The notes below the pieces were generated by a model. It was not told the origin of the DNA. It searched no databases and was given only the letters and a program-made list of their open reading frames with translations. From Bacillota bacterium (lineage in GTDB: Bacteria > Bacillota > UBA994 > PWPR01), in assembly GCA_028280325.1 (NCBI GenBank), contig JANQLZ010000129.1, positions 1 through 64,000 on the forward strand: 64,000 nt of DNA. Direction: 5' to 3'. A program made the position numbers and the translations under genes. Of this stretch, positions 4,747-48,033 are shown one piece after another (position 1 is the stretch's first letter; every line of letters begins with the position of its first letter).

Positions 4747-5412
4747 CTACCTCTTATAAATCGCATCTATTTCCTTGATTACCAGCAGCACGCCATTGTC
4801 AATAGCTATCTGGGCTGGACTGGCAACTAATTCATTGCTTATCCCCAATGAGCTGCCCTGAATTAGCACACTGTCATTTAAGGGATATTTCAATCCTGTG
4901 GTTGTCACACCCTGAACCTGGGAGGTTAAAGGAATTAAGGATACATATGAGCCGATCTTCCCGGTGATTTGGATACTATCGGTGATCGCTTGGACAAAAC
5001 GCCCGTTGTCATCGCAGAGGCGTATCTCAAGGCCTTTGTAGGCGTATTTCAAAAGCAGAAAAACATTGCCGAAAATATGATCTATCCTACGGCCATGTAA
5101 GGCAGCCAGGACCTTTATCTGCTGATATCCGCGATCAATGCAGTAGTCAATTGCTGCCTCCAGATCGGTAAAGTTTTTTTCAGCTGGAAATTCTACAACC
5201 TTGGAACCAGCCTTGACTATGTTTTGAATGACCCCTTTCGCACAGGAATCCATATCCCCTATCACTACATCAGGGATTCGCCCTGCTCGCAACAGATGCT
5301 CTGCTCCCAAGTCAGCACCAATAATCAGATCAGCATCTTTCAAGTGTTTTGCCAGGGTAGGCAAGGCTGGGGCTTTTCCACCAGCCATTATCAAGGCCTT
5401 TTTAACTGACAT
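4747..5412 (-). CDS. thiN: Thiamine pyrophosphokinase
   Basis: This 221-aa enzyme transfers pyrophosphate from ATP to thiamine, making the cofactor TPP in the cytosol. Family features are the N-terminal strand ALIMAGG, GADLGAEHLL, the acidic VIGDMDS motif, NFTDLEAAIDYC (Asp for Mg-ATP) and GRRIDH, followed by the C-terminal beta-sandwich that binds thiamine. The length is typical of the Firmicute form. The start overlaps the end of thiT by 11 bp, so transporter and kinase are translationally coupled and act in sequence: uptake, then phosphorylation. No TPP riboswitch was seen in front of the operon. Confidence 0.9.
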   Translation of the reverse strand: MSVKKALIMAGGKAPALPTLAKHLKDADLIIGADLGAEHLLRAGRIPDVVIGDMDSCAKGVIQNIVKAGSKVVEFPAEKNFTDLEAAIDYCIDRGYQQIKVLAALHGRRIDHIFGNVFLLLKYAYKGLEIRLCDDNGRFVQAITDSIQITGKIGSYVSLIPLTSQVQGVTTTGLKYPLNDSVLIQGSSLGISNELVASPAQIAIDNGVLLVIKEIDAIYKR

Positions 5413-5920
5413 GCCATTCTCTCCTGGTCAGCATAATCATCAATACCAGAGATATTATGATTTCAGGCACCATAAAAGCCGCATTGTACTGGATTGAGCC
5501 GGCTATGGCAATGCTGTATTCAATGCCCTTGAACCAAAAAAATACACCAGAAACAACATGACTGACAAACCGCAAAGTCCCAGCCACTAAAACTGCTGCC
5601 GTGACAGCAGCAATACTTTTTTTGCGCTGCCAAAAACCGACCAGACCCAGCAAACCGAAAGCCAGCAAATAGTCCAAAAAGAACTGCATCCAGTGCAGAT
5701 AATAGGGCTTAAGCATAAAATCGATTATCCCAAATGCCCCCCCAGCCAGCAAGCCGGTCCTCCAACCCCTTCTCCAGGCCAAAAACATAATTGGCACCAT
5801 ACTGCCTAAGGTAACAGAGCCGCCATTGGGCAGTTGATATATTTTAAGAAAATTGAAAAAAACCGCTAAAGCGATCATCGCCCCGCTCTCCACGATTATT
5901 ATTACAGATTTATTTCTCAT
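5402..5920 (-). CDS. thiT: ECF transporter thiamine-specific S component
   Basis: This 172-aa, six-span membrane protein binds thiamine and delivers it through an EcfA-EcfA'-EcfT module. ThiT hallmarks are visible: LPNGGSVTLGSMVPI near residue 28, RRGWRTGLLAGGAFGI, and FVSHVVSGVFFW with the ligand-contacting Trp, Tyr and His residues. The start was set at ATG 5920 (MRNKS) because the upstream 36 codons are the larC2 frame and are not ThiT-like. It overlaps larC2 by 11 bp and thiN by 11 bp. The only ECF A/A'/T set in this window is at 40002-42095. Whether ThiT shares that set or uses another is unknown. Confidence 0.9.
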   Translation of the reverse strand: MRNKSVIIIVESGAMIALAVFFNFLKIYQLPNGGSVTLGSMVPIMFLAWRRGWRTGLLAGGAFGIIDFMLKPYYLHWMQFFLDYLLAFGLLGLVGFWQRKKSIAAVTAAVLVAGTLRFVSHVVSGVFFWFKGIEYSIAIAGSIQYNAAFMVPEIIISLVLMIMLTRREWHVS

Positions 5921-6422
5921 GATTAACCTCTTGTTCAAAGTTGCTGGCAAGAAATGCTCTTGTGGCAACAGCTCTGACAGCTTGAATAGACATATTGTGC
6001 TTAAGAGCAATTTCCTGGCAATCATCATATTCCGGCTTAATATTAACTATTTTACCTTTCCAACGAGCAATTTTAATATTAACAGGACCCAGTTTGGTTT
6101 CGGTCCTGACTAATTCACGTTGACATTTTATTCTGGAGACCGGGCTTAATCTCATGCCTAAAGTACCAGAATGTTTGAACAACAAATCTATTAACGGCTC
6201 CAACCGTTCTGCTGAGGCCATTACATTTAAGGCTACTCCTGGTCTGTTTTTCTTCATCTGAACAGGGGTGTAGCTGACATCAAGGGCGCCACCCTTAAAC
6301 AACTGGTTCATCAAAAAGCCCAGCCGTTCTCCATCAGTATCATCGCAGTTGGTTTCAATGGTGATGATGGTGTCGGTGCTCTCCATGTTCAGGGTGGTGG
6401 CCATGCTTTCCATCGCCATCAT
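5910..6422 (-). CDS. larC: LarC C-terminal half (LarC2), nickel-pincer cofactor biosynthesis
   Basis: This frame encodes the C-terminal domain of LarC, the CTP-dependent cyclometallase that inserts nickel into the pincer cofactor of lactate racemase-type enzymes. It carries the conserved ETNCDDTDGERLGFLMNQLF motif and the PEYDDCQEIA segment. It is offset from larC1 by +1 (equal to -2) and overlaps it by 68 bp (6355-6422). The LarC2 frame is also open upstream through an A9 tract (6452-6460 as T9 on the plus strand). In Lactobacillus plantarum LarC1 and LarC2 are joined by programmed frameshifting, and the layout here fits that. The listed start (ATG 6422) has no convincing ribosome-binding site, which supports a fused product. 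Confidence 0.85.
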   Translation of the reverse strand: MMAMESMATTLNMESTDTIITIETNCDDTDGERLGFLMNQLFKGGALDVSYTPVQMKKNRPGVALNVMASAERLEPLIDLLFKHSGTLGMRLSPVSRIKCQRELVRTETKLGPVNIKIARWKGKIVNIKPEYDDCQEIALKHNMSIQAVRAVATRAFLASNFEQEVNHEK

Positions 6423-7176
6423 GGTCGTGGTGATGGTGTCGCTGGAAGTTATTTTTTTTTCGCTCCCCTACTAAAAGGCGAGTAAAATTAGGTATTTCCA
6501 ATTCGTGGGTGCCGGCCCCATAACCGATTTTAGCAATGCTCATCTGGGGCTGGTAGCCAAAGCTGTCTGCCAAGGCAGTTACTAACGCTGCCCCGGTAGG
6601 TGTAACCAACTCGTTTCTGAGGCCCTGGCAGTAGGTTGGGATATCTCTTTCAGTCAGTATTTTAAGGGTAGCAGGTGCTGGTACAGGAATCACTCCATGA
6701 GCGGCATGCACAAAGCCGGTTCCCAAATGTAATGGAGAAACTACTATCTCCGGCCAATTCATCATCTCCAGAGCGATGCAGTTTCCGACAATATCTACAA
6801 TTGCATCAATCGCTCCCACTTCATGAAAATGAACTTCGTTAAGAGTGCTGCCGTGAACCTGAGCCTCAGCCTTTGCTAATACAGTAAAAACCTCAATGCT
6901 CTTTTGCTTTACTTTATCTGAGAGCTCGGAGTTGTTGATGATCTCAGTTATCTCTGTCAGTCCCCGGTGATGATGGTCTTCGGCGCAGTGGACCTGCACT
7001 TTAGTGCCGGTAACACCGTTTTTAATTACCCGCTCGGCCGTGAGCTGATATCCTTCAAGTTTTAGTTTCGCCAATTCCTGTAAAAGATCTGTTAATGCGA
7101 TTCCGGCATCGACAAATGCCCCTAACAACATGTCTCCAGCTACACCGCTGAAAGCATGGATATAAACTATACTCAT
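6355..7176 (-). CDS. larC: LarC N-terminal half (LarC1), nickel-pincer cofactor biosynthesis
   Basis: This 273-aa product starts with the LarC signature HAFSGVAGDMLLGAFVDAG and contains HFHEVGAIDAIVDIVG, with candidate metal and CTP-site residues. Its last 30 or so residues are dominated by His, Asp, Glu and Gly, a likely nickel store. The stop at 6355 lies inside the overlap with larC2. Reading through by a +1 or -2 shift gives full-length LarC of about 410 residues. An A9 run in the codons Arg-Lys-Lys-Asn just before the His-rich tail is a good slippage site. The ATG at 7176 is 2 nt after the larB stop, so the two are co-translated. larA and larE are not in the window. Confidence 0.9.
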   Translation of the reverse strand: MSIVYIHAFSGVAGDMLLGAFVDAGIALTDLLQELAKLKLEGYQLTAERVIKNGVTGTKVQVHCAEDHHHRGLTEITEIINNSELSDKVKQKSIEVFTVLAKAEAQVHGSTLNEVHFHEVGAIDAIVDIVGNCIALEMMNWPEIVVSPLHLGTGFVHAAHGVIPVPAPATLKILTERDIPTYCQGLRNELVTPTGAALVTALADSFGYQPQMSIAKIGYGAGTHELEIPNFTRLLVGERKKNNFQRHHHHDHDGDGKHGHHPEHGEHRHHHHH

Positions 7177-7178
7177 TA

Positions 7179-7934
7179 TTACTCGCTCCTTAAATGATTA
7201 ATAATTGAAGCGGAATATCCTGCTCCAAAGCCATTATCTATGTTTACCACTGTTATACCAGAGGCACAGCTGGTCAGCATGGCCAACAAGGCCGAGATAC
7301 CCTGGAAATTGGCACCATAGCCAACACTTGTAGGTACCGCAATTAAGGGCTTGTAAACCAGGCCGCCTACAACTGAGGCCAACGCCCCTTCCATACCGGC
7401 AACTACAATAATTACCCGGGCTTCATCCAGCTTCTGTTTATTCTGCAATAAGCGGTGCACACCGGCAACACCGACATCATATAACCTTTCAACCTTATTG
7501 CCCATAATAACTGCTGTCTCTACAGCTTCTTCAGCAACAGGTAAATCAGATGTACCAGCAGATATCACTAAGATAGTGCCCAGCCCTGTAACCTTAACAT
7601 CTTGTTCATAAGCGACAGTCCGGGCCAGCTGATTAAAGCGCACCTGAGGAACCAGAGCTTTAATTGCCTGGTACTGGCCCATTGTAGCTCTGGTAGCCAA
7701 TACCCTGCCGTTTTTTTGAGCCAGTCTCTCAAATATATTTGCAATATGCTCATCAGTTTTACCAGGGCAGTAGATAACTTCCGGGAACCCTGAGCGCAGG
7801 GCTCGATGATTATCAATTTTAGCATAGCCAACGTCTTCGAAAGGCAAATCTTTCAATCTATCAATGGCGGTTTCAATTTCAATTGAGTTAGAACGCACCT
7901 TTTCCAATAACTGTTTCAGCTTCTCTCTTTCCAC
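7179..7934 (-). CDS. larB: LarB, nicotinic acid adenine dinucleotide carboxylase/hydrolase
   Basis: This 251-aa protein belongs to the LarB/PurE-like (AIR carboxylase) family. LarB carboxylates NaAD at C5 of the pyridinium ring and cleaves the phosphoanhydride, giving the precursor later thiolated by LarE. Family features are the ERLAQKNGRVLATRAT region, ISAGTSDLPVAEEA, DVGVAGVHRLL and a C-terminal Rossmann-like half with VVAGMEGALASVVGGL and VPTSVGYGA. The start is GTG with GGAG upstream. It is the first gene of larB-larC-thiT-thiN. A 210-bp divergent region separates it from the aminopeptidase at 8146. Confidence 0.9.
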   Translation of the reverse strand: MEREKLKQLLEKVRSNSIEIETAIDRLKDLPFEDVGYAKIDNHRALRSGFPEVIYCPGKTDEHIANIFERLAQKNGRVLATRATMGQYQAIKALVPQVRFNQLARTVAYEQDVKVTGLGTILVISAGTSDLPVAEEAVETAVIMGNKVERLYDVGVAGVHRLLQNKQKLDEARVIIVVAGMEGALASVVGGLVYKPLIAVPTSVGYGANFQGISALLAMLTSCASGITVVNIDNGFGAGYSASIINHLRSE

Positions 7935-38284: not shown

Positions 38285-38584
38285 CTATATTAGCTTTTTA
38301 ACCAGATAAGACAGGGTGATTACTGGATTATATATTAACATTCTCGGTCCAGAATACATCATTACTGCCTTTATTTTTTTCCTCATTTGCGGTGTATAAC
38401 ATTTAATGCTGCATTTTCTGCAGAAAGGTTTACTTAATTTATGGGGGCATTTATAGAGCCTTTTGCGCGTATACTCCAGAAGATTACTACACTCTACACA
38501 GAGCGAGCCATCAGTATTGTGATTTTTGCTACAGTAAAGACGGATCATCTTCTCCACAATATCTGTCTCTTGTTTTATGCTCAA
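38285..38584 (-). CDS. YgbA-type (nitrous oxide-stimulated promoter) family protein
   Basis: This 99-aa protein matches the YgbA_NO family: EKMIRLYCSKNH at the start, CxxC pairs (CVEC, CRKCSIKC) and CYTPQMRKKIKAVMMYSGPRM near the C-terminus. Several Cys may bind metal or an iron-sulfur centre. E. coli YgbA is linked to nitric-oxide/nitrogen-oxide responses, but its role is unclear. The start is TTG at 38584, directly next to the kinase-like stop, so it is the last gene of the Moco-type operon. Confidence 0.75.
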   Translation of the reverse strand: MSIKQETDIVEKMIRLYCSKNHNTDGSLCVECSNLLEYTRKRLYKCPHKLSKPFCRKCSIKCYTPQMRKKIKAVMMYSGPRMLIYNPVITLSYLVKKLI

Positions 38585-39241
38585 TTACGAGAGTTCCCTT
38601 CGCTTCTTTATTGCTTTAATCTCTTCTTCAATTAGCCTGTTAATTTCAGCTGCCGAGATTTGATACCTTGCTGCCAAGTAAGCCTTAAGCCGTTCAGACA
38701 CTTCAAGTTTAAAATCCGAACACACAGGGCTGTAGAACAGGTGCATCGCTATGGTTTTGGCCGCATCCTGTACAAATGTACCCGAACGAATGTCTTCAAA
38801 GTCAATACCAATAATCTGGTGATTGATTACCAGAAAATTTCTAAAGTTAATGTCATAATAACACAGGTTATTGCTCTTAATATACTGGAGCTGGCTAAAT
38901 TTGTACAGGTAGTCAATAAGCTGGGTTAACAGGCTATAAGCATTATCATAGCTCTGCTTAAGCTCATAGGCTTCCAGCCTGTCAAGCAGTGTTGAACAGG
39001 CTATATATTCGATTAACAGCTCCCTTTTTGATGAGTTGTAGTCTAAAAGCCGTGGTGTTTTAAATTCTTCCTTGATCATCATTAAATAGAAGTTCTTTTC
39101 AGTTTCAAAAAGCTCCTGATTATTAAATCTCTTTTGAATATACTGTTCTGCACCATGTTTAATCAAATACACTTCATTCTTTTTTGAATTGAACTGCTTG
39201 ACAACAGTCAGGCCTTTACTTCTTTCGGTATTTTTTCTCAT
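38585..39241 (-). CDS. Kinase-like protein (RIO/BUD32/Kdo-kinase-type fold)
   Basis: This 218-aa protein looks like a small ATP-dependent kinase. It has a Lys-containing N-terminal strand (YLIKHGAEQYIQKRF), a catalytic-loop-like YYDINFRNFLV (D and N as in HxDxxxxN kinases) and IGIDFEDI as the metal-binding DFG-equivalent. A substrate is not known. It overlaps mobB by 26 bp with ATG 39241; an upstream TTG (39256) is possible. It sits inside the Moco-type operon, where phosphorylation of a cofactor precursor or protein could be its role (inference). Confidence 0.6.
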   Translation of the reverse strand: MRKNTERSKGLTVVKQFNSKKNEVYLIKHGAEQYIQKRFNNQELFETEKNFYLMMIKEEFKTPRLLDYNSSKRELLIEYIACSTLLDRLEAYELKQSYDNAYSLLTQLIDYLYKFSQLQYIKSNNLCYYDINFRNFLVINHQIIGIDFEDIRSGTFVQDAAKTIAMHLFYSPVCSDFKLEVSERLKAYLAARYQISAAEINRLIEEEIKAIKKRRELS

Positions 39242-39986
39242 TATAGCCAAACTCAATTTTTATATGGGCATTTTCCTGATAGCCATCCAGCTCGCTCACC
39301 ACTGCCAGAGCTGCGTTTTTAACAAGCCTGGCTACAAACGGTACCATCGGTATCGCTTTATCATTTATCTTAAGCGACACATCATCCTGGTTTATTATAC
39401 AATCACTTCTCTTCTTTTTACCCGAAACTATCAGGCCACACATTGTCCGACAATCATAACCACACGCCCCACAGCACTGCTGGTCGTAATCAGGCAATAA
39501 TTCAAAACTGATCTCTTCAATTAAGTCAACCAAACCAGCCACATTCTCCAGAGCGTTAATCGCTTTTAGCCCCTTGTACTCAGCTATCTCAGCAGCTATT
39601 CTGCCAGAAACTGCAAAGGTACTCTGATCAATCTTTTCATCCAGGTCCTGAAAATTTTTGCCAGTTACAATTTTAGGAACATTGGCCTCTGAATAGCCTT
39701 CCAGTACTAAAAAATCATGATCATAAAAGCTGGCGATCTGGTAAATATCCAATTGTTTTTGATAAAGAATATCTGTTTCAAACAACCCTCTGGCAGTTAC
39801 CAGTTCCGAACCGGCCATCATATGGCGATGAGTATTAGTCCCTTCCTGATCTATTTTGAACTGCTCAAAATGGATATCCTTAACACTGCCAACACTGTAA
39901 TTCCGGCGCTTTAACTCCTTGATTATTTCCTCAATTGTAGTAGTTTTTCCCGTTTTGGTATACCCGATAACCGCAAAAACCTTCAT
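39216..39986 (-). CDS. mobB: MobB-like GTPase with C-terminal Cys-cluster domain
   Basis: This 256-aa protein starts with a MobB P-loop domain (VIGYTKTGKTTTIEEII, then FEQFKIDQEGTNTHRHMMAG, LEGYSEANVPKIV). MobB binds GTP and helps MobA attach GMP to molybdopterin. A second domain (about 165-200) has clustered Cys residues (CCGACGYDCRTMCGL, then SDCI) that look like an iron-sulfur site. MobA is absent from the window. It is within the Moco-type operon, 15 bp after ecfT, which ties the operon to guanylated cofactor. The ATG at 39986 has GGGGGAG upstream. Confidence 0.8.
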   Translation of the reverse strand: MKVFAVIGYTKTGKTTTIEEIIKELKRRNYSVGSVKDIHFEQFKIDQEGTNTHRHMMAGSELVTARGLFETDILYQKQLDIYQIASFYDHDFLVLEGYSEANVPKIVTGKNFQDLDEKIDQSTFAVSGRIAAEIAEYKGLKAINALENVAGLVDLIEEISFELLPDYDQQCCGACGYDCRTMCGLIVSGKKKRSDCIINQDDVSLKINDKAIPMVPFVARLVKNAALAVVSELDGYQENAHIKIEFGYNEKKYRKK

Positions 39987-40001
39987 TTTCTCTCCCCCTA
40001 C

Positions 40002-40745
40002 TCATATCTGCAATAAATGCCAGTTAAAAATAATAATTACCCCGGCTACAATGGCACTGCTCAATGCCAGAGCATAGTCCAGGGCTTTAAATTTCAGAAC
40101 CTTAATACTGGTTCGCTGATTAAAAGCCCTAAACCCCCGGGCTTCAATAGAAATCGATATCTGTTTAGCCTTAGTCAGGGTGTTAACTATTACCGGTGTA
40201 AAGATATAGGCATATATCTCCAGTTTTTGTTTTAGTTTAAGCGAGTTAAGGTCTATTCCCCTTAACTGAATGGCAATTAAGGTGTCTTTTAACTGCTCCA
40301 TCAGCAATGGCAGGAATTTTATTCCCACCGAAGCCATAAACGCCAGGTCATAGGGGAGCTTCAATTGAATTAAACCCTGAATCAACTCACGCATATCAGA
40401 GGTAGCAATTATTGTTCCCGATAAGAAAATGATCATTACTCTCAGCAGATAACCTGCCCCTTTGATTAAACCGACATCTGTTATTATTTTAATATGGTTA
40501 AAGCCGATCAATACCCGTCCAGTTCTGATAAACAGGCTTTGCAAAATAACAATGCCGATGATTAAATAAAGCATCTTGCGCAGCTTTTTGATGGCAGTAA
40601 GGACATTGGCCTGCAGCATCACTGCGTAGATAAGCTCAGCGATCAGCACAATCAGCAGTGTCCAAATATTTTCGAATACTATACCTAAGGTAGACAGGCA
40701 AATTACTAAAAACAGTTTTGCTCGAGGGTCAACTGTGCTGCTCAT
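40002..40745 (-). CDS. ecfT: ECF transporter T component
   Basis: This 247-aa membrane protein couples the two ATPases to the S component. It has four or five membrane spans and the typical cytoplasmic coupling-helix region with GIDLNSLKLK and SISIEARGFRAFNQR (Ala-Arg-Gly signatures). It overlaps ecfA by 17 bp. The A, A' and T genes form one complete module with the S component at 44078. Because ThiT is also present in the window, the module could be shared among S components. Confidence 0.85.
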   Translation of the reverse strand: MSSTVDPRAKLFLVICLSTLGIVFENIWTLLIVLIAELIYAVMLQANVLTAIKKLRKMLYLIIGIVILQSLFIRTGRVLIGFNHIKIITDVGLIKGAGYLLRVMIIFLSGTIIATSDMRELIQGLIQLKLPYDLAFMASVGIKFLPLLMEQLKDTLIAIQLRGIDLNSLKLKQKLEIYAYIFTPVIVNTLTKAKQISISIEARGFRAFNQRTSIKVLKFKALDYALALSSAIVAGVIIIFNWHLLQI

Positions 40746-41394
40746 TGACTACCCCTCCGCGATCTAACTCAATAATTCTGTCGGCCTGTTCCAGCACGAA
40801 CTGATGATCATGACTGATCATCAGCATGCCAATATTTTTAGACCTTATTTTCTGCAATAGGCTGCTAAGCTCCTTTTTTCTTTTTTGATCCAAACCGGTA
40901 GTCGGTTCATCTAAAATCAGGTATTCCGGATCATTTAGCAGAATAGCAGCTAAAGCAACTCTTTGCTTTTCTCCATGGCTTAAAAAATAGGTTTTGGCCT
41001 GGCTCAGATGCTCAAGCTCAAAGACAGCCAGCATTTCATTAACCTGCTGCTGAAGCTGCGGTTGCTGATGCTTTTTAAACCTGTAGGCAAAGGTTAGCTC
41101 TTCCATTACAGTGGCGGCAAATATCTGCCGGTTAGGATTCTGAAATAAATATCCGATTTTTGAGCCGATATTTGCCAGACCCAAATCCTTTACATCCGTA
41201 CTGTCCACTAAAATATAGCCCCTGCTCGGCGCAATAATTCCCATTATTAACTTACTCAATGTTGTTTTACCGCTGCCATTGGGTCCAACCAAGGCCACAA
41301 ACTGATTACGAGCCAGGGACAGATCAATATTATTCAAAACTGCCTGGCCATTAATACTGTAAGATACCTGATGTATCCGAATATAATTGTTCAT
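40729..41394 (-). CDS. ECF transporter ATPase A' (EcfA-type)
   Basis: This 221-aa ABC ATPase has Walker A GPNGSGKTTL, signature LSHGEKQRVALAAILL, Walker B YLILDEPTTGLD and the H-loop SHDHQ. It pairs with the neighbour at 41391 as a heterodimer. The genes overlap by 4 bp (ATGA). Confidence 0.9.
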   Translation of the reverse strand: MNNYIRIHQVSYSINGQAVLNNIDLSLARNQFVALVGPNGSGKTTLSKLIMGIIAPSRGYILVDSTDVKDLGLANIGSKIGYLFQNPNRQIFAATVMEELTFAYRFKKHQQPQLQQQVNEMLAVFELEHLSQAKTYFLSHGEKQRVALAAILLNDPEYLILDEPTTGLDQKRKKELSSLLQKIRSKNIGMLMISHDHQFVLEQADRIIELDRGGVVNEQHS

Positions 41395-42095
41395 TGCAGT
41401 ACCCCATCATAAGGCTTTAATCTGCCGTCAGCTAACAGGTATATCTGGTCAGCATATGCCAGATTACTAAAATCATGCTCAACCATAATGATTGTTTTGC
41501 CACTGTCCCTCAGGTTCTTAATGGCTGCCATAATCAGCTGTCGGCCCTTGTTATCAATCTGTGCCATACACTCATCTAAGATCAAAATCTCAACATTTAA
41601 GCTTAGAACCGAGGCAATTACTACCAGCTGCTTTTCTCCACCCGACAGATTATTGGGGTTTCGGTAGCGCAGATTTTCAATCTGCAGCAGCTCAGTAATA
41701 TCATCAATTCGCTGTAGTATTTCATCAGGTGGAACACATAAATTTTCAGGACCAAAAGCTATTTCATCTTCCACACTGGAGAATACTATCTGGCTGTCGG
41801 GGTCCTGAAAGACGGTGGCAATCACTGTCGATAATTCAAAGACATCTTTTTCAGTAATCTCCTGGCCATTAAGCAAAACCCGGCCCTGAAAGTCACCGTT
41901 GATTCGGCGAGGAATAATCCCATTGAGGATATTCATCAGGGTTGTCTTGCCTGACCCGCTTAAGCCGACAATACCGACAACCTGACCTCGTCTGACACCC
42001 AGATTAATATCGGTCAGCACCGGTTTAGCGCTGTTTTGGTACCTGAAACTAACTCGGTCTACCTCAACCATGTAACCGTTATCTATGTCCCCCAC
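41391..42095 (-). CDS. ECF transporter ATPase A (EcfA-type)
   Basis: This 234-aa ABC ATPase has Walker A GLSGSGKTTLMNIL, signature LSGGEKQLVVIASVL, Walker B EILILDECMAQID (D-E-C replaces the usual DEP) and the H-loop VEHDF. The start is GTG at 42095, with GAGG 7 nt upstream. It overlaps the next upstream gene by 1 bp. Confidence 0.88.
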   Translation of the reverse strand: MGDIDNGYMVEVDRVSFRYQNSAKPVLTDINLGVRRGQVVGIVGLSGSGKTTLMNILNGIIPRRINGDFQGRVLLNGQEITEKDVFELSTVIATVFQDPDSQIVFSSVEDEIAFGPENLCVPPDEILQRIDDITELLQIENLRYRNPNNLSGGEKQLVVIASVLSLNVEILILDECMAQIDNKGRQLIMAAIKNLRDSGKTIIMVEHDFSNLAYADQIYLLADGRLKPYDGVLQ

Positions 42096-42616
42096 TATTT
42101 GACCTCAGCCGATATTGCGTATTTACACCAATGTTGACTGAACTGATCCTTACTGATAATCATCTGATAGGGGCCTTTGCCACCGGACTCTTTGGTTCCA
42201 ATCAACTCGCCTTCTCTTCTGTACGCTAAATACACATTGTTTTCATCCAGTACTTTGTCAATATCTACCGCAACAACATAGCCATCTGCGGCACTGACAA
42301 TAACAGAGCTTTTTCCTTCTAAACTGATACCGGCCTCCACTAAAATATTTTTTAGCAAGACCCCGGTATATTCATAGGGAATAGGTGCTTTTCCGCTGGT
42401 TTTTAAATTCGCTTTAAAAGTGGTTTCACCCATTTCACTTATTTCCTGCATATCATACCTGACAACTTCCTGACCGTTATCATAGACAATAAACTCAGCA
42501 TTTTCAATCAGGGCTTTTTTGTCAGCGACATTTTCTCGATTAAAGTATGCTGCCACTGCAATAATTACAGCAAGTATGACAATAATCCCAACTACTAATT
42601 TGCTACTCTTTCTCAT
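42095..42616 (-). CDS. Membrane-anchored SUOX-fold (molybdopterin-binding-like) protein
   Basis: This 173-aa protein has an N-terminal anchor (LVVGIIVILAVIIAVAAYF) and one extracytoplasmic domain that resembles the sulfite-oxidase molybdopterin domain: YTGVLLKNILVEAGI, VIVSAADGYVVAVD and FSQHWCKYAISAEV. The canonical Cys that binds molybdenum is not clearly in place, so a catalytic oxidoreductase is unlikely. I infer a pterin/cofactor-binding or capture role. It lies between the phosphodiesterase-type lipoprotein (1-bp overlap) and the ECF ATPases. Confidence 0.65.
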   Translation of the reverse strand: MRKSSKLVVGIIVILAVIIAVAAYFNRENVADKKALIENAEFIVYDNGQEVVRYDMQEISEMGETTFKANLKTSGKAPIPYEYTGVLLKNILVEAGISLEGKSSVIVSAADGYVVAVDIDKVLDENNVYLAYRREGELIGTKESGGKGPYQMIISKDQFSQHWCKYAISAEVK

Positions 42617-44085
42617 TAGTTCTTACCCCCGTCGAGAATCATATAAGGTATCAGCATGTCCTCTGCTCGAAACTCCCCATGGCTGCCACCGGTAGCAGTA
42701 TTATGCATGCCATGATCCGACACGATAACTACTTTTCCTGCCCAGCTGTTGACTAAATCTGCAACATAGGAGTCCAGCACCTTCATTTGCTGAACAATAC
42801 TGTCATTAATAGCTCCATAATTATGACCCACTTCATCTAAGCTGTGAAAATGAACAAAAAACAAATCGTATCCATTGTTGATTTCTCCCATAGCATTTAA
42901 AAATATTTCGTCATCCTTAAAACCGTTCTTGTTGGTATCAATATTGAGTGAGGGAGTTATGCTGGTTTTAAGGATACTGGTATCTCCTTCAATCAAAATA
43001 CTTTTCTGCCCCAGGTCAACAGCTTTGTCAAAGATAGTATCCACCTTCAGTTCACGATAACTGCGATTGAGAACCCCATTGACTTGGGGCGGCTGGCCGG
43101 TTATCATGGCTGCAAATCCGGCATTGGTTACTGGCTTAAACACGGTATTGGCCCGGGCCACCCTCTTAATACCGGCAAGGAATAAGTCTGGATGATTTTT
43201 AGAAAAGTATTGATACTGTTGGTATGAAAATCCATCGATTAAGATAACCAGAACATTCTGGCCCTGTTGCAGATAATGCAGGGTATCGTAATACGTGTCC
43301 ATTACATTATGAGCAGGAGGATTGACAATCATTCCAACAATATCACGATAAATTCTGTCAGACAGAATAAGATTGATTCCGCTGTCATCTATCTCAACCA
43401 GCCCTGTCTCCCCGTAGATATAATCGTATTCTCCCTCCTGATCCATTACTAACAGGCTGTCGATATCCTCTGAAACCAGGCTGCTCAGTTCCACAGTTTT
43501 TTTAAGCTGCATCACATCTACCTCATAGTCTTTTTCTCCATGACTCTTAGTCGTAACCCCCTCAGAAAATGCGGCAACCTGATACGGGCTGGATCTGAGC
43601 TCTCCCAAAGAAAAGTTGATCGTCGAGTCGCCGACGATTATATTCAGCCCAAAATCGTAATGTGTTTTATCGGAGTTTTTGACAATAATCATTTCATCAA
43701 TATTCTTTATTCTACTGTTAACCGGATGTTTATCTGAAATAAAAACCCATTGATCAGTCTCGGAATACCCCAGATAAGACTCCCCTAAGGTATCCTCAGC
43801 CAGCTTGATCATAAATCCGTCTGCAGCTTTAAAATAGATATCGTTCTGCTCATAAACCAGGGCCAAACTTTGCAGCAGCAGCTCGGTATTTACCCCCTGC
43901 AGCCGCTGCTCATTGTAACTGATCTGCTCCTGAGTGAGCTCCTTCCAAATATCATTCAGTTTAACTGACTCCTGGAGATCCCCTACTATTGTTAGCTCAG
44001 GCCGGGCCGGATTAGCGCTATCACACCCGCTCCACAACAGCAGAGCGGCCAGCAATACTGTAATTATTTTAGTTATCTTAAGCAT
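42616..44085 (-). CDS. Lipoprotein: SUOX-like domain plus nucleotide pyrophosphatase/phosphodiesterase-type domain
   Basis: This 489-aa protein has a lipobox (LLLWSGC) at about residue 19. A 200-residue N-terminal part resembles the SUOX domain (YNEQRLQGVNTELLLQSL, YFKAADGFMIKLAED). The C-terminal 200 residues are an alkaline-phosphatase superfamily phosphodiesterase: Asp in VLVILIDGF, the Thr nucleophile in PVTNAGFAAMITG, HFHSLDEVGHNYG, VSDHGMHN and a final His in GSHGEF. NPP enzymes cut dinucleotide pyrophosphates, so cleavage of MGD-type cofactor outside the cell is a plausible role (inference). ATG 44085 was preferred to an upstream TTG; it overlaps the S component stop (ATGCTTAA). Confidence 0.75.
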   Translation of the reverse strand: MLKITKIITVLLAALLLWSGCDSANPARPELTIVGDLQESVKLNDIWKELTQEQISYNEQRLQGVNTELLLQSLALVYEQNDIYFKAADGFMIKLAEDTLGESYLGYSETDQWVFISDKHPVNSRIKNIDEMIIVKNSDKTHYDFGLNIIVGDSTINFSLGELRSSPYQVAAFSEGVTTKSHGEKDYEVDVMQLKKTVELSSLVSEDIDSLLVMDQEGEYDYIYGETGLVEIDDSGINLILSDRIYRDIVGMIVNPPAHNVMDTYYDTLHYLQQGQNVLVILIDGFSYQQYQYFSKNHPDLFLAGIKRVARANTVFKPVTNAGFAAMITGQPPQVNGVLNRSYRELKVDTIFDKAVDLGQKSILIEGDTSILKTSITPSLNIDTNKNGFKDDEIFLNAMGEINNGYDLFFVHFHSLDEVGHNYGAINDSIVQQMKVLDSYVADLVNSWAGKVVIVSDHGMHNTATGGSHGEFRAEDMLIPYMILDGGKN

Positions 44086-44644
44086 CTTCAAAGCTATCAA
44101 ACCCCAAATCAGCAATTTTTCTGCATATAAAGTAAGCGATTACCCCGCCTAATCCCCCTGACAATGCACCACTGGCCAGGCTCAGAATGAGCGGAATAGC
44201 TGGCAACCTGAAGAAAACCAGGTTAGACAGATAAGTTCCACTCATGTTGGCAATAATTCCAGCCAGGAAAAAATCAATCGGGGCGTTGATCTTTCTCCGC
44301 GCCATGAGAAAAAGCAGGTCAACCATCAGGCCCGGCAAGGAGTAAGTGATAATACTAACCACACCATGGCTGCCAAAGGCCCCCATCACCATAACTATCA
44401 GCGATTGGGTAAAGGCAATCAGGGTTGCCGTTCCTCTTTTGTTCACCAGGGCAGCTCCTAAAACAATCCACATCATATAAAAGCCACCGGCTACTGCTCC
44501 ACCTGGTATAAAAAGTGGAGAGGTTATTAAATGAGTTAAGGGAACAATAATCGGTTTTGTCGCCAGCCCCAATGCCGCCATCAGGGCAATTACGACAATC
44601 TCATAAATACTGAACTTACGTAAAAATGTACTTTTCTTATTCAT
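44078..44644 (-). CDS. ECF transporter S component, substrate unknown
   Basis: This 188-aa membrane protein has six likely spans (for example IVVIALMAALGLATKPIIVP and ITYSLPGLMVDLLFLMA). The ECF S-fold pattern is present with an Ala-rich first helix. PGGAVAGGFYMMWIVLGAALV and MVMGAFGSHGVVSI resemble YkoE-type components, which carry hydroxymethylpyrimidine-like substrates. The substrate is not known. Its place in a Moco/Tuco riboswitch operon beside MobB suggests a molybdopterin, pterin or metal-related ligand. It overlaps the phosphodiesterase gene by 8 bp. Confidence 0.75.
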   Translation of the reverse strand: MNKKSTFLRKFSIYEIVVIALMAALGLATKPIIVPLTHLITSPLFIPGGAVAGGFYMMWIVLGAALVNKRGTATLIAFTQSLIVMVMGAFGSHGVVSIITYSLPGLMVDLLFLMARRKINAPIDFFLAGIIANMSGTYLSNLVFFRLPAIPLILSLASGALSGGLGGVIAYFICRKIADLGFDSFEDA

Positions 44645-44673
44645 GTACTCCCTCTTTTATGTGCTGCCGACTG

Positions 44674-46218
44674 CTATTTCACAGTTACTTTGCAGACGCC
44701 TTTAAGCCACTTAGAGGCAAACTCGGTGTCCTGAACTAATCTGACCAGATTTGATTCGTCAGTCATTTCCTGCCCATTTTTGACGACAGCAAATATCGTT
44801 TTATCGTCGATCTCATCCCTGCTGTACTCGATTTGATAGCCATCGCCGGCGGTCATGACCAGGCCGTTAAAATCGGTAACTTTCAGAAAATTGAGCACGT
44901 CTAATACCCGGTAGCCCTCCCAGGTGTCGGTGATTTGTTGATCGTCCTTGGTAAAGGTAGTCTCCAGCTCGATCAGCTCTAATTTACGGGCAGCTTTTTC
45001 ACTGGTAAAGTCAAAAGAACCATCACTTAAGCCCTCAAAGGTAATTGTCCAATTTGTGGTTAAACCTTCGTCAAAGACCGCAGCTGGGGGTTCTTCAACC
45101 ACAGAGCTGGCCTCTTTTCCACTCGTACCTACGGCTATGCTTAAGATATTTTTAACTCCAGCAGATTTAGGCATTGACTGGTCAAACTTGATTTTATACT
45201 GCCCACTGTCATCCAGGCAGAGTATTCCTTTTTCCAGGTTTTCCTGAGCAATTTCAGCTTGATAATTGTCTGATGCTGCAAACAAATATGAATCGCCATC
45301 TAAACCGCTTGCTTTAATAACCTCTTCCAGTTTGGCTCCTGATACACCATCAATCTCTCTGGTTGGCAGATTAGCAATAGCCTGAGCAGCAGACATGAAG
45401 ACCACCTGGCCACAGCTGGCAGTGATAAAGTTTTTAACCTGCATGCCCTTTGGCAGATCCGGGGCAATGAACAGAGGTACGTTTTCACCGGTTACTTTAA
45501 AATAACCACCTGATAATACCTCGTATTTTTCTGTTTTCTCGAAGCCATCTCCGGCGACAAACTTTGTAGTACTGTCTTTGGCAATATTATACTTTTGGAA
45601 TAGCTCTGCTACTTTTAAAGCCTGGTCATTGCTCTCGTAATAGGTATAGTCATGAAGCTCTGAATCACTGGCCTCAGTCTCTAAAATAATAACTTTCTGT
45701 GTGGCAGACTGCTCATCATTACCAGCTGGACTTAAATTTATTTCCTGGAGCTGAGATACAAAGTACATCGTCCTGACGCCATCAATAGCTGACCTAAGCG
45801 GCTGCTTGTCCTCGGCCAGCGGCTCGCCATCGAACTCATAGGCCAAAATTATATCTTTCTCAGCTACAACTTCAGGGGGAACATCTATTTCATAGCCATC
45901 GCCCGCGATTAGCCTGACAGCGCTTAAGTCGCTTTGATTCAGTCCCTTTGATTGCAAAATGGTGTTTAGCAGCACCCCTTTAACCTCATTGACAACCTCT
46001 TCACCACTTGAGGTAACACTTTGTACTGTTTTGGTCACTGCTTCCATGGCAAAGATATCATCATAGGCAATCTCAAAAGCATCCTCGATGCCGGTGATTT
46101 TTAAACTGCCATCATAGCTGTAATTGAAGTCAGCCGGCTCGCTTTGGGTACAGGCTGTGGACAGAATCAGCAAAGCAATTAACAACAACGAAACTTTTTT
46201 CATGGCACTATTTCTCAT
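44674..46218 (-). CDS. Lipoprotein with three SUOX-like (molybdopterin-binding-like) domains
   Basis: This 514-aa protein has a lipobox (LLIALLILSTAC). It then carries three related units of about 150 residues: DAFEIAYDDIFAM with VKGVLLNTIL and LIAGDGYEIDVP; the middle one with LFAASDNYQAEI; and WEGYRVLDVLNFLKV with MTAGDGYQIEYS, ending in WLKGVCKVTVK. The pattern matches the domain at 42095 but the molybdenum-ligand Cys is not conserved. ATG 46218 (GGGGG 8 nt upstream) was chosen over the ATG 46248 frame. It overlaps the FMN-binding gene by 4 bp (ATGA), so translation is coupled. Confidence 0.7.
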   Translation of the reverse strand: MRNSAMKKVSLLLIALLILSTACTQSEPADFNYSYDGSLKITGIEDAFEIAYDDIFAMEAVTKTVQSVTSSGEEVVNEVKGVLLNTILQSKGLNQSDLSAVRLIAGDGYEIDVPPEVVAEKDIILAYEFDGEPLAEDKQPLRSAIDGVRTMYFVSQLQEINLSPAGNDEQSATQKVIILETEASDSELHDYTYYESNDQALKVAELFQKYNIAKDSTTKFVAGDGFEKTEKYEVLSGGYFKVTGENVPLFIAPDLPKGMQVKNFITASCGQVVFMSAAQAIANLPTREIDGVSGAKLEEVIKASGLDGDSYLFAASDNYQAEIAQENLEKGILCLDDSGQYKIKFDQSMPKSAGVKNILSIAVGTSGKEASSVVEEPPAAVFDEGLTTNWTITFEGLSDGSFDFTSEKAARKLELIELETTFTKDDQQITDTWEGYRVLDVLNFLKVTDFNGLVMTAGDGYQIEYSRDEIDDKTIFAVVKNGQEMTDESNLVRLVQDTEFASKWLKGVCKVTVK

Positions 46219-46706
46219 TGATTTATTCCCCCATAGTTTTCTATACATAGATTAACACCGGTAACAACCGCTTTTGACGAAATGGTTGCCCCGGTTACAG
46301 CAACGACATCATTACTATTTTTTTTAGCAACTTTAACCAGACTAAGCTGCTGGTTTACTGGCAGTAAAAGCCTGGCTAAAAACCAGTCTTCTACAATGTA
46401 TCCGCCGTAATCCGGGGTTTCATTATGGCTTAGAATGGCAACGTTCTGGACATGCTCATCGTTAATGGCAACCAAAAGCCTGATAACACTTTTGTATCCT
46501 TGCACGGCAACAATCTGTACAATCCCCTCCTCGGTATGATAAACCCTGATAATCTGCTCACTTTCAGCATGTTTAATCCTGTCAGCCTTGCTGTAGCCAT
46601 GCTCATTCAGCACTGACTGATAGTCATCAGCAAAGAAATTAACAGATATTATTGCTGCTGCCACCAGAATGATTATTACCATTACTATTATATTTTTTTT
46701 CTTAAT
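46215..46706 (-). CDS. Membrane-anchored FMN-binding domain protein
   Basis: This 163-aa protein has a membrane helix (NIIVMVIIILVAAAIISVNFF) and an FMN-binding domain with NDEHVQNVAILSHNETPDYGG and the flavinylation motif VVAVTGATISS, where ApbE-type enzymes attach FMN to Thr. It may donate electrons to the operon's extracytoplasmic proteins. The only well-placed ribosome-binding site (GAGGAGG) is 8 nt before an ATT codon at 46706. The next in-frame ATG (46682) has no site. I therefore use ATT, a rare start. The riboswitch and terminator leader lie upstream and are not coding. Confidence 0.65.
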   Translation of the reverse strand: MKKKNIIVMVIIILVAAAIISVNFFADDYQSVLNEHGYSKADRIKHAESEQIIRVYHTEEGIVQIVAVQGYKSVIRLLVAINDEHVQNVAILSHNETPDYGGYIVEDWFLARLLLPVNQQLSLVKVAKKNSNDVVAVTGATISSKAVVTGVNLCIENYGGINQ

Positions 46707-46733
46707 TGTCTCAACCTCCTCAGTCTTAAAACT

Positions 46734-46759
46734 AAAAAATTCTCCCAAAAGGAAGAATT
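46734..46759 (-). terminator. Terminator in the riboswitch leader (expression platform)
   Basis: On the minus strand AATTCTTCC-TTTT-GGGAGAATT (9 bp with one G-U) is followed by TTTTTT and more T-rich sequence. It lies between the cofactor-binding RNA and the first gene, typical of transcription attenuation. Confidence 0.85.
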
Positions 46760-46794
46760 TATTGCATACTTTGTCTAAGGACCAGCAATACCCT

Positions 46795-46875
46795 TTTCCT
46801 TTCCACAATGGGAGGCATAGCCGTTTCCAGCTATACCCTGGCGGCATAAAAATCGTATCCAGTTTAAAAACTGCA
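46795..46875 (-). promoter_or_regulatory. Moco/Tuco riboswitch (molybdenum/tungsten cofactor)
   Basis: On the minus strand the RNA has ACTGGATACG, GCCGCCAGGG, a 10-bp hairpin closed by a GAAA tetraloop (GGTATAGCTG/CGGCTATGCC), GCCTCCC and GTGGAAAGG in the order of the E. coli moaA leader, where GCCACCAGGG, CCTCCC and TGGAAAGG flank a similar arm. The large P3 arm of Moco RNAs is replaced by about 8 nt, as in the Tuco variant. The terminator at 46734-46759 follows. A -10 box TATAAT lies at 46943-46948 (minus strand). It controls the operon 46706-38285. Confidence 0.85.
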
Positions 46876-47001
46876 TTTAGACCAGTATGCTCGGAAATAA
46901 GTGATTTAACTTTGATAATTATTGACACTGTCTTAAGATATTATTATATTCGCTAAAATACGTTAATAACCTTTTGCTTTATCAATATTTGAAACTAAAT
47001 T

Positions 47002-48033
47002 TTAACTTTTAACATAAGGAATAAACTCACCGTATCCCTCCTGTTCCATATCCTGCAGCGGAACAAATCTTAGAGAGGCGCTGTTAATGCAGTAGCGCAG
47101 GCCGCCGCTATGTTGGGGGCCATCCTTAAAAACATGTCCCAAATGACTGTCTCCGGCCCGGCTGCGCACCTCAGTTCGGTCCATGCCATAACTTCGATCT
47201 TTTTTCTCCACTAAAACAGCCTCTTCAATTGGCCGGGTGAAACTGGGCCAGCCACAGCCGGAATCAAATTTGTCTTTGGACAAAAAAAGCGGTTCTCCAG
47301 TAACTATATCCACGTAGATACCTTCTGCTTTAGTTTGATAATACTCATTATCAAAGGGTTTTTCAGTGGCATTTAACTGCGTCACCCGATATTGGATATC
47401 TGTCAGCTGCCCCCTGAGCTGTTCATCAGCGGGCTTACTGTAATTGCTGTTGTTCACGATCTGACTGTCAGTTTGTGGTAGGTTCGACAAATCAATATGA
47501 CAATAGCCGTGGGGATTCTTCTGCAAATACTTTTGATGATAATCCTCTGCTAAATAGTAATGCTCCAGCGCTTTAATCTCCACCACAATAGGTTTAGCGT
47601 ATTTTTGCTGCTCCTCTTCCAGTACAGTTTTAATAATCGGCAGCTCTGTTTCGTCCTGATAATAGATACCGGTTCGATATTGAGTACCGATATCATTCCC
47701 TTGTCTGTTTTCAACTGTGGGATCAATTATGTTGAAAAAATGTTTCAGTAACGCCCGCAGTTTAACCTTACTCTGGTCGTATTTGACGTGTACGGTTTCA
47801 ACATGATTAGTCTTAGCAATCTGATGGTATGAAGGGTTCTCTGTTGTTCCATTGGCGTAGCCAACAGTAGTATCATAAACCCCGTGAATTCGGGAGAAAT
47901 AAGCCTCAACTCCCCAAAAACAACCTCCTGCCAGCCAAATCTCTCTTTTGTGCTCGTCAGCTAATATCAACTCCTCATCTTTAGCTTCTGCTATCTTTGA
48001 TTTTGCACCTAACAGCTTTTTTAAATTAAACAT
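47002..48033 (-). CDS. msrAB: Bifunctional peptide methionine sulfoxide reductase MsrAB
   Basis: This 343-aa fusion repairs oxidised methionine. The N-terminal MsrA domain has the catalytic Cys in [13 protein letters not shown]. The C-terminal MsrB domain has [25 protein letters not shown] and the catalytic Cys in [12 protein letters not shown]. It reduces both S and R forms and uses thioredoxin or similar. ATG at 48033 with GAGGTG upstream. Monocistronic. Confidence 0.93.

Follow-up and report, generated by a model that had tools for sequence, protein, structure and literature searches.

A Riboswitch-Headed ECF Operon of Bacillota as a Candidate Importer of Molybdopterin-Type Cofactor

Organization of the Locus

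On its minus strand, the window (the whole 64-kb stretch of DNA analyzed here) carries 11 overlapping or closely set genes, with gaps of −41 to +29 bp, behind a Moco/Tuco riboswitch aptamer. A first-pass annotation of the sequence had claimed such a riboswitch-headed run, and the RF01055 match together with the family matches along the run shows that it is real. The features are as follows:

46780..46908 (−): Moco/Tuco riboswitch aptamer, P3-less (Tuco-type); RF01055, 70.6 bits, cut-off 36
46737..46760 (−): terminator-like hairpin with U-rich tail, putative expression platform (transcriptional OFF switch); consensus scan
46215..46706 (−): FMN-binding (RnfG/FMN_bind-like) exported protein, start inferred; PF04205, 59 bits
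44674..46248 (−): multi-domain SUOX-like lipoprotein, putative extracellular cofactor binder; PF00174 (Oxidored_molyb), 52.5 bits in two stretches, lipobox by eye
44078..44644 (−): ECF S component (membrane, substrate capture); PF09819, 48 bits, AF2 model compared with YkoE 5EDL
42616..44115 (−): NPP-type phosphodiesterase lipoprotein; PF01663 (Phosphodiest), 52.7 bits
42095..42616 (−): membrane-anchored single SUOX-like domain, putative pterin/cofactor binder; PF00174, 30 bits
41391..42095 (−): ECF ATPase A; TIGR04520, 212 bits
40729..41394 (−): ECF ATPase A'; TIGR04520, 184 bits
40002..40745 (−): ECF T component (CbiQ/EcfT); PF02361, 90 bits
39216..39986 (−): MobB-like P-loop GTPase with C-terminal Cys/FeS domain; TIGR00176, 84 bits, cut-off 76.2
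38585..39256 (−): APH-fold small-molecule kinase, putative re-phosphorylating/trapping enzyme; PF01636, 30 bits
38285..38584 (−): YgbA-family protein; NF007714, 109 bits, above cut-off

The leader, for which a score below the Rfam model threshold had been considered, is instead matched over its full length and far above it (E 5e-15). The P3 hairpin is absent from the aptamer, its positions being deleted in the Rfam alignment, and the same P3-less form occurs in 20 of 20 aligned relatives. PMC2408646 ties this RNA type to tungsten use and proposes it as the Tuco type. Between the aptamer and the first gene, the terminator-like hairpin has 10 pairs followed by its U-rich tail, from which we infer that the leader would act as a transcriptional OFF switch.

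The first gene probably starts with ATT at 46706 after AGGAGG, or else with ATG at 46682, as read from the sequence; the GTG listed as its start, upstream of the aptamer, is probably wrong. An iterative FMN_bind profile drifted and became mixed with the SUOX lipoproteins, and no claim made here rests on it. At the other end of the operon, the YgbA gene is a feature of a single genus: of the loci examined by HMM, those of the window and its congener have it within the operon, and no others do.

Putative Binding Proteins and Processing Enzymes

Residue conservation indicates that the active sites of both processing enzymes are intact. In the NPP protein, the Thr nucleophile (T330) and the two-metal ligand set (D294, D427, H431, D467, H468, and H479) are invariant in 28 relatives, and the nearest relative of solved structure is a bacterial NPP. 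In the kinase, to which the earlier annotation had assigned no function, K42, E53, D135, N140, and D152 are invariant in 29 relatives.

The SUOX-like proteins are partly as first described. In the large lipoprotein, annotated with three SUOX domains, two are clear (about residues 17–148 and 429–524) and the middle one is weak; in the lipoprotein annotated as SUOX plus NPP, the NPP part stands, while the SUOX part is weak. The single SUOX domain (42095..42616) gave an AF2 model with a pLDDT of 93, whose best fold matches are the PruR pterin-binding proteins, followed by sulfite oxidases. The Mo-ligating cysteine column of the SUOX family is absent from these domains, the sole Cys column being C164 near the C terminus (25 of 41); a role as active SUOX enzymes was considered and rejected. 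What they share with PruR (7KOM, 7KOS, 7KOU; PMC13259868), the top structure match, is an exported SUOX-fold domain of about 150 residues without the Mo-ligating Cys, and the modeled fold thus suggests putative pterin or cofactor binders. PruR signals to DcpA without a transporter,[PMC13259868] whereas the SUOX domain here is membrane-anchored and shares its operon with an importer or, in a sister system, forms one polypeptide with the S component. PruR binds reduced monapterin or neopterin and probably not full Moco,[PMC13259868] so the idea that the single SUOX domain accommodates the intact cofactor is a guess.

Recurrence and Genome Content of the Carriers

Relatives of the S component were found in 46 of 399 genomes of the phylum, mostly with the same block of genes (S, NPP, SUOX-like, A, A', T, MobB-FeS, and kinase), often under a Moco RNA. 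Because the block is conserved across loci, a chance association of its parts is excluded. Co-occurrence of the S component with the Moco/Tuco RNA, the check put forward with the first-pass annotation, proved strong: among the 75 S loci of named genomes that could be tabulated, 54 have a Moco RNA, against an expectation of no more than about 5, and in 45 it heads a same-strand gene run. Homologous operons thus retain the Mo/W link, whose loss would have spoken against the proposal. The block is not uniform. NPP and kinase are absent from some otherwise matching operons, some copies adjoin TupABC, and in a sister system S is fused to SUOX and a calcineurin-like phosphoesterase stands in for NPP, one such phosphoesterase being itself fused to SUOX.

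The strongest evidence on the substrate comes from what the carriers lack. In 18 S carriers from ten families, including the window organism, family searches found neither MoaA, MoaC, MoeA, nor Mog/MoaB; the lone PF00994 match, where there is any, is a CinA-sized ORF, and genome G298 has one weak second match. The tungstate-binding protein TupA is likewise missing from all 20 MoaA-less carriers searched, compared with its presence in 9 of 10 MoaA-positive ones. The set searched for loss consisted of MoaA, MoaC, MoeA, Mog/MoaB, and TupA. The loss is seen in two genomes assembled as single contigs, and in genomes more than 95% complete. All 18 nevertheless encode a Mo/W enzyme, of the AOR family in 16 and of the DMSOR family, above cut-off, in 14. 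Carriers with Mo/W enzymes and without the searched synthesis genes would depend on finished cofactor, and the operon is therefore the best candidate for its importer. Across 132 MoaA-less genomes, a Moco RNA was present in 16 and absent from 2 with the S component, versus 12 and 102 without it (odds ratio 68, p 2e-11). One MoaA-less carrier, Anaerosalibacter massiliensis ND1, is a cultured isolate with a formate-dehydrogenase-like gene after the operon. MoaA is also encoded by 28 of the 46 S carriers, so the operon is not confined to auxotrophs.

These findings support the core of the first-pass annotation, namely that a molybdopterin-type cofactor is captured, trimmed, and imported. The alternative that survives best, although we regard it as unlikely, is that the imported compound is another pterin, or else a precursor or degradation product of Moco (cPMP, neopterin, or metal-free molybdopterin), and that the cell finishes the cofactor. 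The resemblance of the SUOX-like domains to PruR, with its reduced pterin ligands, would suit such an import. MoeA and Mog are, however, required for metal insertion into molybdopterin, and the 18 obligate carriers lack both as well as TupA, so that a novel insertase, perhaps MobB-FeS, would have to be invoked. The same absences make it most likely that the metal comes in together with the cofactor.

Very improbable, in our estimate, is that the MoaA-less carriers make Moco by a novel pathway and that the operon only assists in the redox chemistry or maturation of Mo/W enzymes. The kinase, MobB-FeS, and the FMN proteins could be maturation factors, and MoaD and MoaE lay beyond the gene set, but every searched step has been lost, repeatedly, in ten families and in the most complete genomes, and a transporter with a phosphodiesterase suits salvage better.

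The S Component and the ECF Module

Accompanied in its operon by dedicated A, A', and T subunits, the S component belongs to a group I ECF system. Its AF2 model (pLDDT 85) best matches the fold of the thiamine transporter subunit YkoE (5EDL, TM 0.73) at 18% identity; searching PDB sequences with the S profile gave no match, and the link to YkoE came from the fold search and an intermediate sequence. The YkoEDCB group I ECF thiamine transporter (5EDL; PMC5037267) likewise combines a PF09819-family S component with dedicated A, A', and T in a single operon, whereas the window operon stands under a Moco RNA and has SUOX, phosphodiesterase, MobB, and kinase partners.

This fold, and the FMN_bind protein encoded within the operon, could be taken to mean that a known vitamin (thiamine/HMP or flavin) is imported, with the SUOX and FMN-binding proteins in a separate extracellular redox chain. 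The pocket argues otherwise: the thiamine contacts Tyr46, Trp49, Glu77, Gln95, and Asp131 of YkoE are replaced by G, Y, V, P, and N in the window-type S component, leaving 0 of 5 identical, and three of the replacements are invariant. Binding of an unrelated vitamin, raised at the outset as a possible objection, is thus not suggested by the predicted pocket. In addition, ThiT and thiamine diphosphokinase are already encoded in the window, Rfam scans of the window and of homologous loci revealed neither a TPP nor an FMN riboswitch, and neither the MoaA-less carriers nor the Moco RNA would be explained; we give this possibility scarcely any weight. Equally remote is an ECF-type molybdate/tungstate importer with the SUOX-like proteins as metal chaperones, since, despite the Moco/Tuco RNA control and the copies next to TupABC, a metal oxyanion would be useless for the known cofactor route where MoaA, MoaC, MoeA, and Mog are missing, NPP and kinase would be left without a role, and ECF metal systems of the CbiMN/NikMN type have a different S family. 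An extracellular electron-transfer locus was also considered and rejected.

Proposed Route of Cofactor Uptake

We consider it likely that the operon serves the riboswitch-controlled uptake of extracellular molybdopterin-type cofactor by capture, trimming, import, kinase trapping, and MobB-FeS delivery; in the window lineage, the imported cofactor is probably the tungsten form. When cofactor is scarce, the aptamer would be empty and transcription would pass the terminator. The Cys-less SUOX lipoproteins and the anchored SUOX domain may then take up cofactor, free or released, on the outer side of the membrane, where the NPP-type phosphodiesterase would cut a dinucleotide or phosphate ester to give a smaller, less charged species. 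To judge from genome content, the S component and its dedicated A, A', and T subunits would import this trimmed species, and the APH-fold kinase would plausibly trap it inside by re-phosphorylation. The FMN-binding proteins may hold the cofactor in its reduced state.

The last step differs from that of the first-pass annotation, whose interpretation stands for capture, trimming, and import and fails in having MobB join GMP to molybdopterin. This joining is done by MobA, not MobB. No credible MobA match was found in the window genome or its congener (the former has weak ones only, e.g., a GlmU-sized ORF), and no DMSO-reductase-family (guanine-dinucleotide-type) enzyme was found in the window genome. 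Re-guanylation was therefore rejected as the role of MobB here, which in this genome does not work with MobA in making MGD. The protein is a family member by its P-loop and TIGR00176 score, and its P-loop and C172, C175, C179, and C196 are invariant in 31 relatives; a step in cofactor handling is suggested, in which the MobB-FeS GTPase would carry the cofactor and deliver it to the aldehyde oxidoreductase. The 14 carriers with DMSOR enzymes have MobA-like matches of 50–97 bits, and in organisms with dinucleotide enzymes such a separate protein may add GMP.

Relation to Known Systems and Outlook

A literature search outside subscription papers and preprints found no description of Moco or molybdopterin uptake, of a transporter, or of ECF systems linked to molybdopterin in bacteria, and T11SS outer-membrane proteins have been suggested as possible actors in such uptake.[PMC12282271] The operon is a widespread candidate Moco importer. 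The closest parallels are partial. QrtT–QueK–QueL, for preQ1/queuosine salvage in C. difficile,[PMC11477304] also combines a cofactor-type riboswitch with an S component and processing enzymes, but serves another cofactor class and has neither extracellular binding proteins nor a dedicated ECF module. Moco/Tuco riboswitch regulons share the RNA family of the window leader and, in the available portion of their description,[PMC2408646] comprise genes for synthesis, metal transport, and enzymes, with no cofactor importer among them. In C. elegans, dietary Moco is taken up ready-made by cells unable to synthesize it; this recipient is an animal, the source is protein-bound bacterial Moco, and the mechanism and transporter are not known.[PMC9793310] By the prevailing view, a cell that needs Moco has to synthesize it, and the passage of Moco across membranes still counts as an open question.[PMC9793310]

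More tentatively, and at somewhat less than even confidence, metal-loaded Mo/W cofactor could be a true vitamin for many anaerobes: at least 10 families of the phylum would include species that have given up synthesis, metal insertion, and TupA and live on cofactor set free by others, through Cys-less SUOX capture, trimming and dephosphorylation outside the cell, import by a dedicated ECF transporter, and re-phosphorylation by a dedicated kinase. The system offers natural obligate users, a cultured MoaA-less isolate, a riboswitch readout, and candidate proteins for binding, trimming, and trapping. If the proposal is true, it may also provide a route to stabilize or deliver Moco, and the Mo/W cofactor would join the shared goods of microbial communities, which would help to explain the dependence of some anaerobes on their partners.

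Operon Architecture and Conservation

The operon is laid out as follows.

46908-46780, minus strand: Moco/Tuco riboswitch aptamer (full match to RF01055, 70.6 bits, cut-off 36)
46760-46737, minus strand: terminator-like hairpin between the aptamer and the first gene
46706 or 46682 (probable start of the first gene) to 38285, minus strand: eleven genes 3' of the hairpin, in 5' to 3' order FMN-binding protein, multi-domain SUOX-like lipoprotein, ECF S component (PF09819), NPP-type phosphodiesterase lipoprotein, short anchored SUOX-like protein, ECF A, A' and T, MobB with a Cys/FeS domain, APH-fold kinase, and YgbA-family protein

The leader described as riboswitch-like in the first-pass annotation scores above the Rfam threshold, and its count of eleven overlapping or tightly spaced genes was confirmed (gaps of -41 to +29 bp). 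Two of its domain assignments held in part: the three-domain SUOX lipoprotein is multi-domain with a weakly supported middle SUOX domain, and the SUOX-plus-NPP lipoprotein has a sound NPP domain and a weak SUOX part. The aptamer lacks the P3 stem, as do 20/20 aligned operon RNAs; this form is proposed as a tungsten-cofactor sensor (PMC2408646). A bifunctional MsrA/MsrB methionine sulfoxide reductase gene (47002-48033), also on the minus strand, immediately precedes the riboswitch.

S-component relatives occur in 65 of 399 sampled phylum genomes, with a close group of 46 genomes. Stretches of up to 20 kb from close-group genomes were compared, together with 80 loci from named genomes. The common order is Moco RNA, FMN_bind, SUOX lipoprotein, S, NPP, SUOX, A, A', T, MobB, and kinase. 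The anticipated co-occurrence of the S component with Moco/Tuco RNA and SUOX-like lipoproteins is kept across homologous loci: the covariance model finds a Moco RNA in 54 of 75 tabulated named loci, and in 45 it heads the same-strand gene run. With as many as ten such RNAs in every genome, only about five would be expected by chance in these stretches.

Additional genes accompany individual copies. The tungstate transporter TupABC adjoins some, under a Moco RNA in two extracted loci (L040:11696-14383, L050:15919-18513). A MoeA-like gene lies between MobB and kinase in a MoaA-containing lineage (L045:7662-8906, same place in L049). Directly upstream of S in L117 (6264-9952) are a FecCD-type ABC importer and a periplasmic binding protein, a possible second cofactor uptake route, with similar gene patterns in L145 and L165. 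Other operons (L116:1873-9449, similarly L124, L159, L162-L164) encode a large surface protein (~1,320 aa) bearing an SLH domain, together with a membrane protein that combines Fer4_5 and FMN_bind domains; this gene content suggests a surface complex that is anchored and supplied with electrons.

Carriers Lacking Known Cofactor-Synthesis Genes

The decisive evidence for the function of the operon is the content of the carrier genomes. The S component is present in 18 of 132 genomes scored as lacking MoaA (PF06463). A Moco RNA occurs in 16 of these 18 versus 12 of the 114 S-negative MoaA-less genomes (odds ratio 68, p 2e-11); relatives are not independent in this comparison, but the 18 come from ten families. 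None of the 18 has MoaC or MoeA; matches to PF00994, used for Mog/MoaB, are either missing or limited to one CinA-length ORF each, with one weak second match (G298), so Mog/MoaB appear absent too. TupA was found in none of the 18, nor in two further MoaA-less carriers, and was present in nine of ten MoaA-containing carriers. Ten MoaA-containing carriers, used as positive controls, gave matches for MoaC, MoeA, and PF00994. Scoring covered MoaA, MoaC, MoeA, Mog/MoaB, and TupA. Since two of the 18 genomes are single contigs (the window's congener G312 and G095), missing contigs do not explain the absences.

All 18 nevertheless encode Mo/W enzymes, of the AOR family in 16 and of the DMSO-reductase family (over cut-off) in 14. 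MoaA is likewise absent from Anaerosalibacter massiliensis ND1 and one other named genome; the former carries a formate-dehydrogenase-like enzyme, a ferredoxin, and MobB 3' of the operon. The sole AOR-family gene found in the window's genome (L081:8985-11548) is preceded by a polyferredoxin-type protein. The second Moco RNA of this genome (L080:2371-2489, C31) precedes a gene for an L-glutamate gamma-semialdehyde dehydrogenase (TIGR01236, 807 bits), as in the congener (L082:9726-9846); the enzyme may be a metal-independent aldehyde dehydrogenase that is turned on when AOR is short of cofactor.

Probable Imported Species and Role of MobB

With MoaA and MoaC lost, the known route cannot supply the cofactor de novo. 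The loss of MoeA and Mog speaks against import of metal-free molybdopterin or of a precursor from an earlier step, unless an as yet unrecognized insertase exists. MobA-like proteins (50-97 bits) occur in 14/14 MoaA-less carriers with DMSOR-type (dinucleotide) enzymes. No credible MobA was found in the window's genome or its congener, both of AOR type only, and the other two AOR-only MoaA-less carriers have weak matches (41-42 bits). This distribution fits a cofactor that would enter without its nucleotide and be guanylated inside only where needed. The earlier proposal that MobB re-guanylates the imported cofactor is thus not upheld for the window's organism, where the operon MobB does not serve MGD synthesis.

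Proposed Capture, Trimming, and Import

The short SUOX protein (AF2 model, pLDDT 93) has an N-terminal membrane helix; its fold matches PruR pterin-binding proteins best and sulfite oxidases next. No conserved Mo-ligating Cys was found in the SUOX domain of aligned relatives. PruR likewise has no such Cys; it is a periplasmic binder of reduced pterins and is considered too small to hold full Moco (PMC13259868). In NPP, which among solved structures is closest to a bacterial nucleotide pyrophosphatase/phosphodiesterase, the nucleophile Thr and every metal ligand are invariant among aligned relatives. The same holds for the kinase Lys, Glu, catalytic Asp, Asn, and Asp; the kinase is therefore probably active and, being encoded among salvage genes, may re-phosphorylate an imported dephospho-cofactor.

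The predicted S component (pLDDT 85) best matches YkoE (TM 0.73, 18% identity). Despite the similar fold, the thiamine-pocket residues Y46, W49, E77, Q95, and D131 of YkoE (PMC5037267) are all replaced, by G, Y, V, P, and N, of which G, Y, and P are invariant. Thiamine is already provided for by a separate ThiT and thiamine diphosphokinase in the window (4747-6028 and 5910-7934), which lie beside the nickel-pincer cofactor genes LarB and LarC.

In several genomes, including the MoaA-less G250, G320, and G335, S is fused to a SUOX domain (PF09819 + PF00174; loci L084, L085, L086, and L099, related locus L088). This independent sister system has fused A and A', T, and SUOX lipoproteins, and a calcineurin-like/purple-acid-type phosphoesterase stands in for NPP (fused to SUOX in L088); a Moco RNA lies upstream in L084 and L088. 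The covalent link between transporter and SUOX domain, and the exchange of one phosphoesterase family for another, support the view that binding and phosphoester cleavage belong to one function. The sister system also explains some of the 12 genomes with Moco RNA lacking both S and MoaA; several others are incomplete or keep MoeA. Elsewhere, two Moco RNAs flank another ECF module (A, A', T) with a distant S-like component (L089:8426-13137, L098:173-4884).

Conclusion

In the proposed mechanism, the riboswitch would switch transcription off. The SUOX domains, of established fold, would capture the cofactor outside the cell; NPP, with its conserved active site, would trim it; and the ECF module, established in architecture, would import it, as genome content indicates. 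The kinase, whose active site is also conserved, would trap the cofactor, MobB-FeS may deliver it, and the FMN proteins may give redox support.

Salvage operons of the ECF type controlled by cofactor riboswitches are already known. In the open literature searched, none was found described for the molybdenum/tungsten cofactor; a 2022 paper still presents de novo synthesis as the prevailing view and counts the way Moco passes membranes among the unexplained points (PMC9793310). The new part is therefore the proposed salvage of the molybdenum/tungsten cofactor through an ECF operon, a previously unreported and surprising function.
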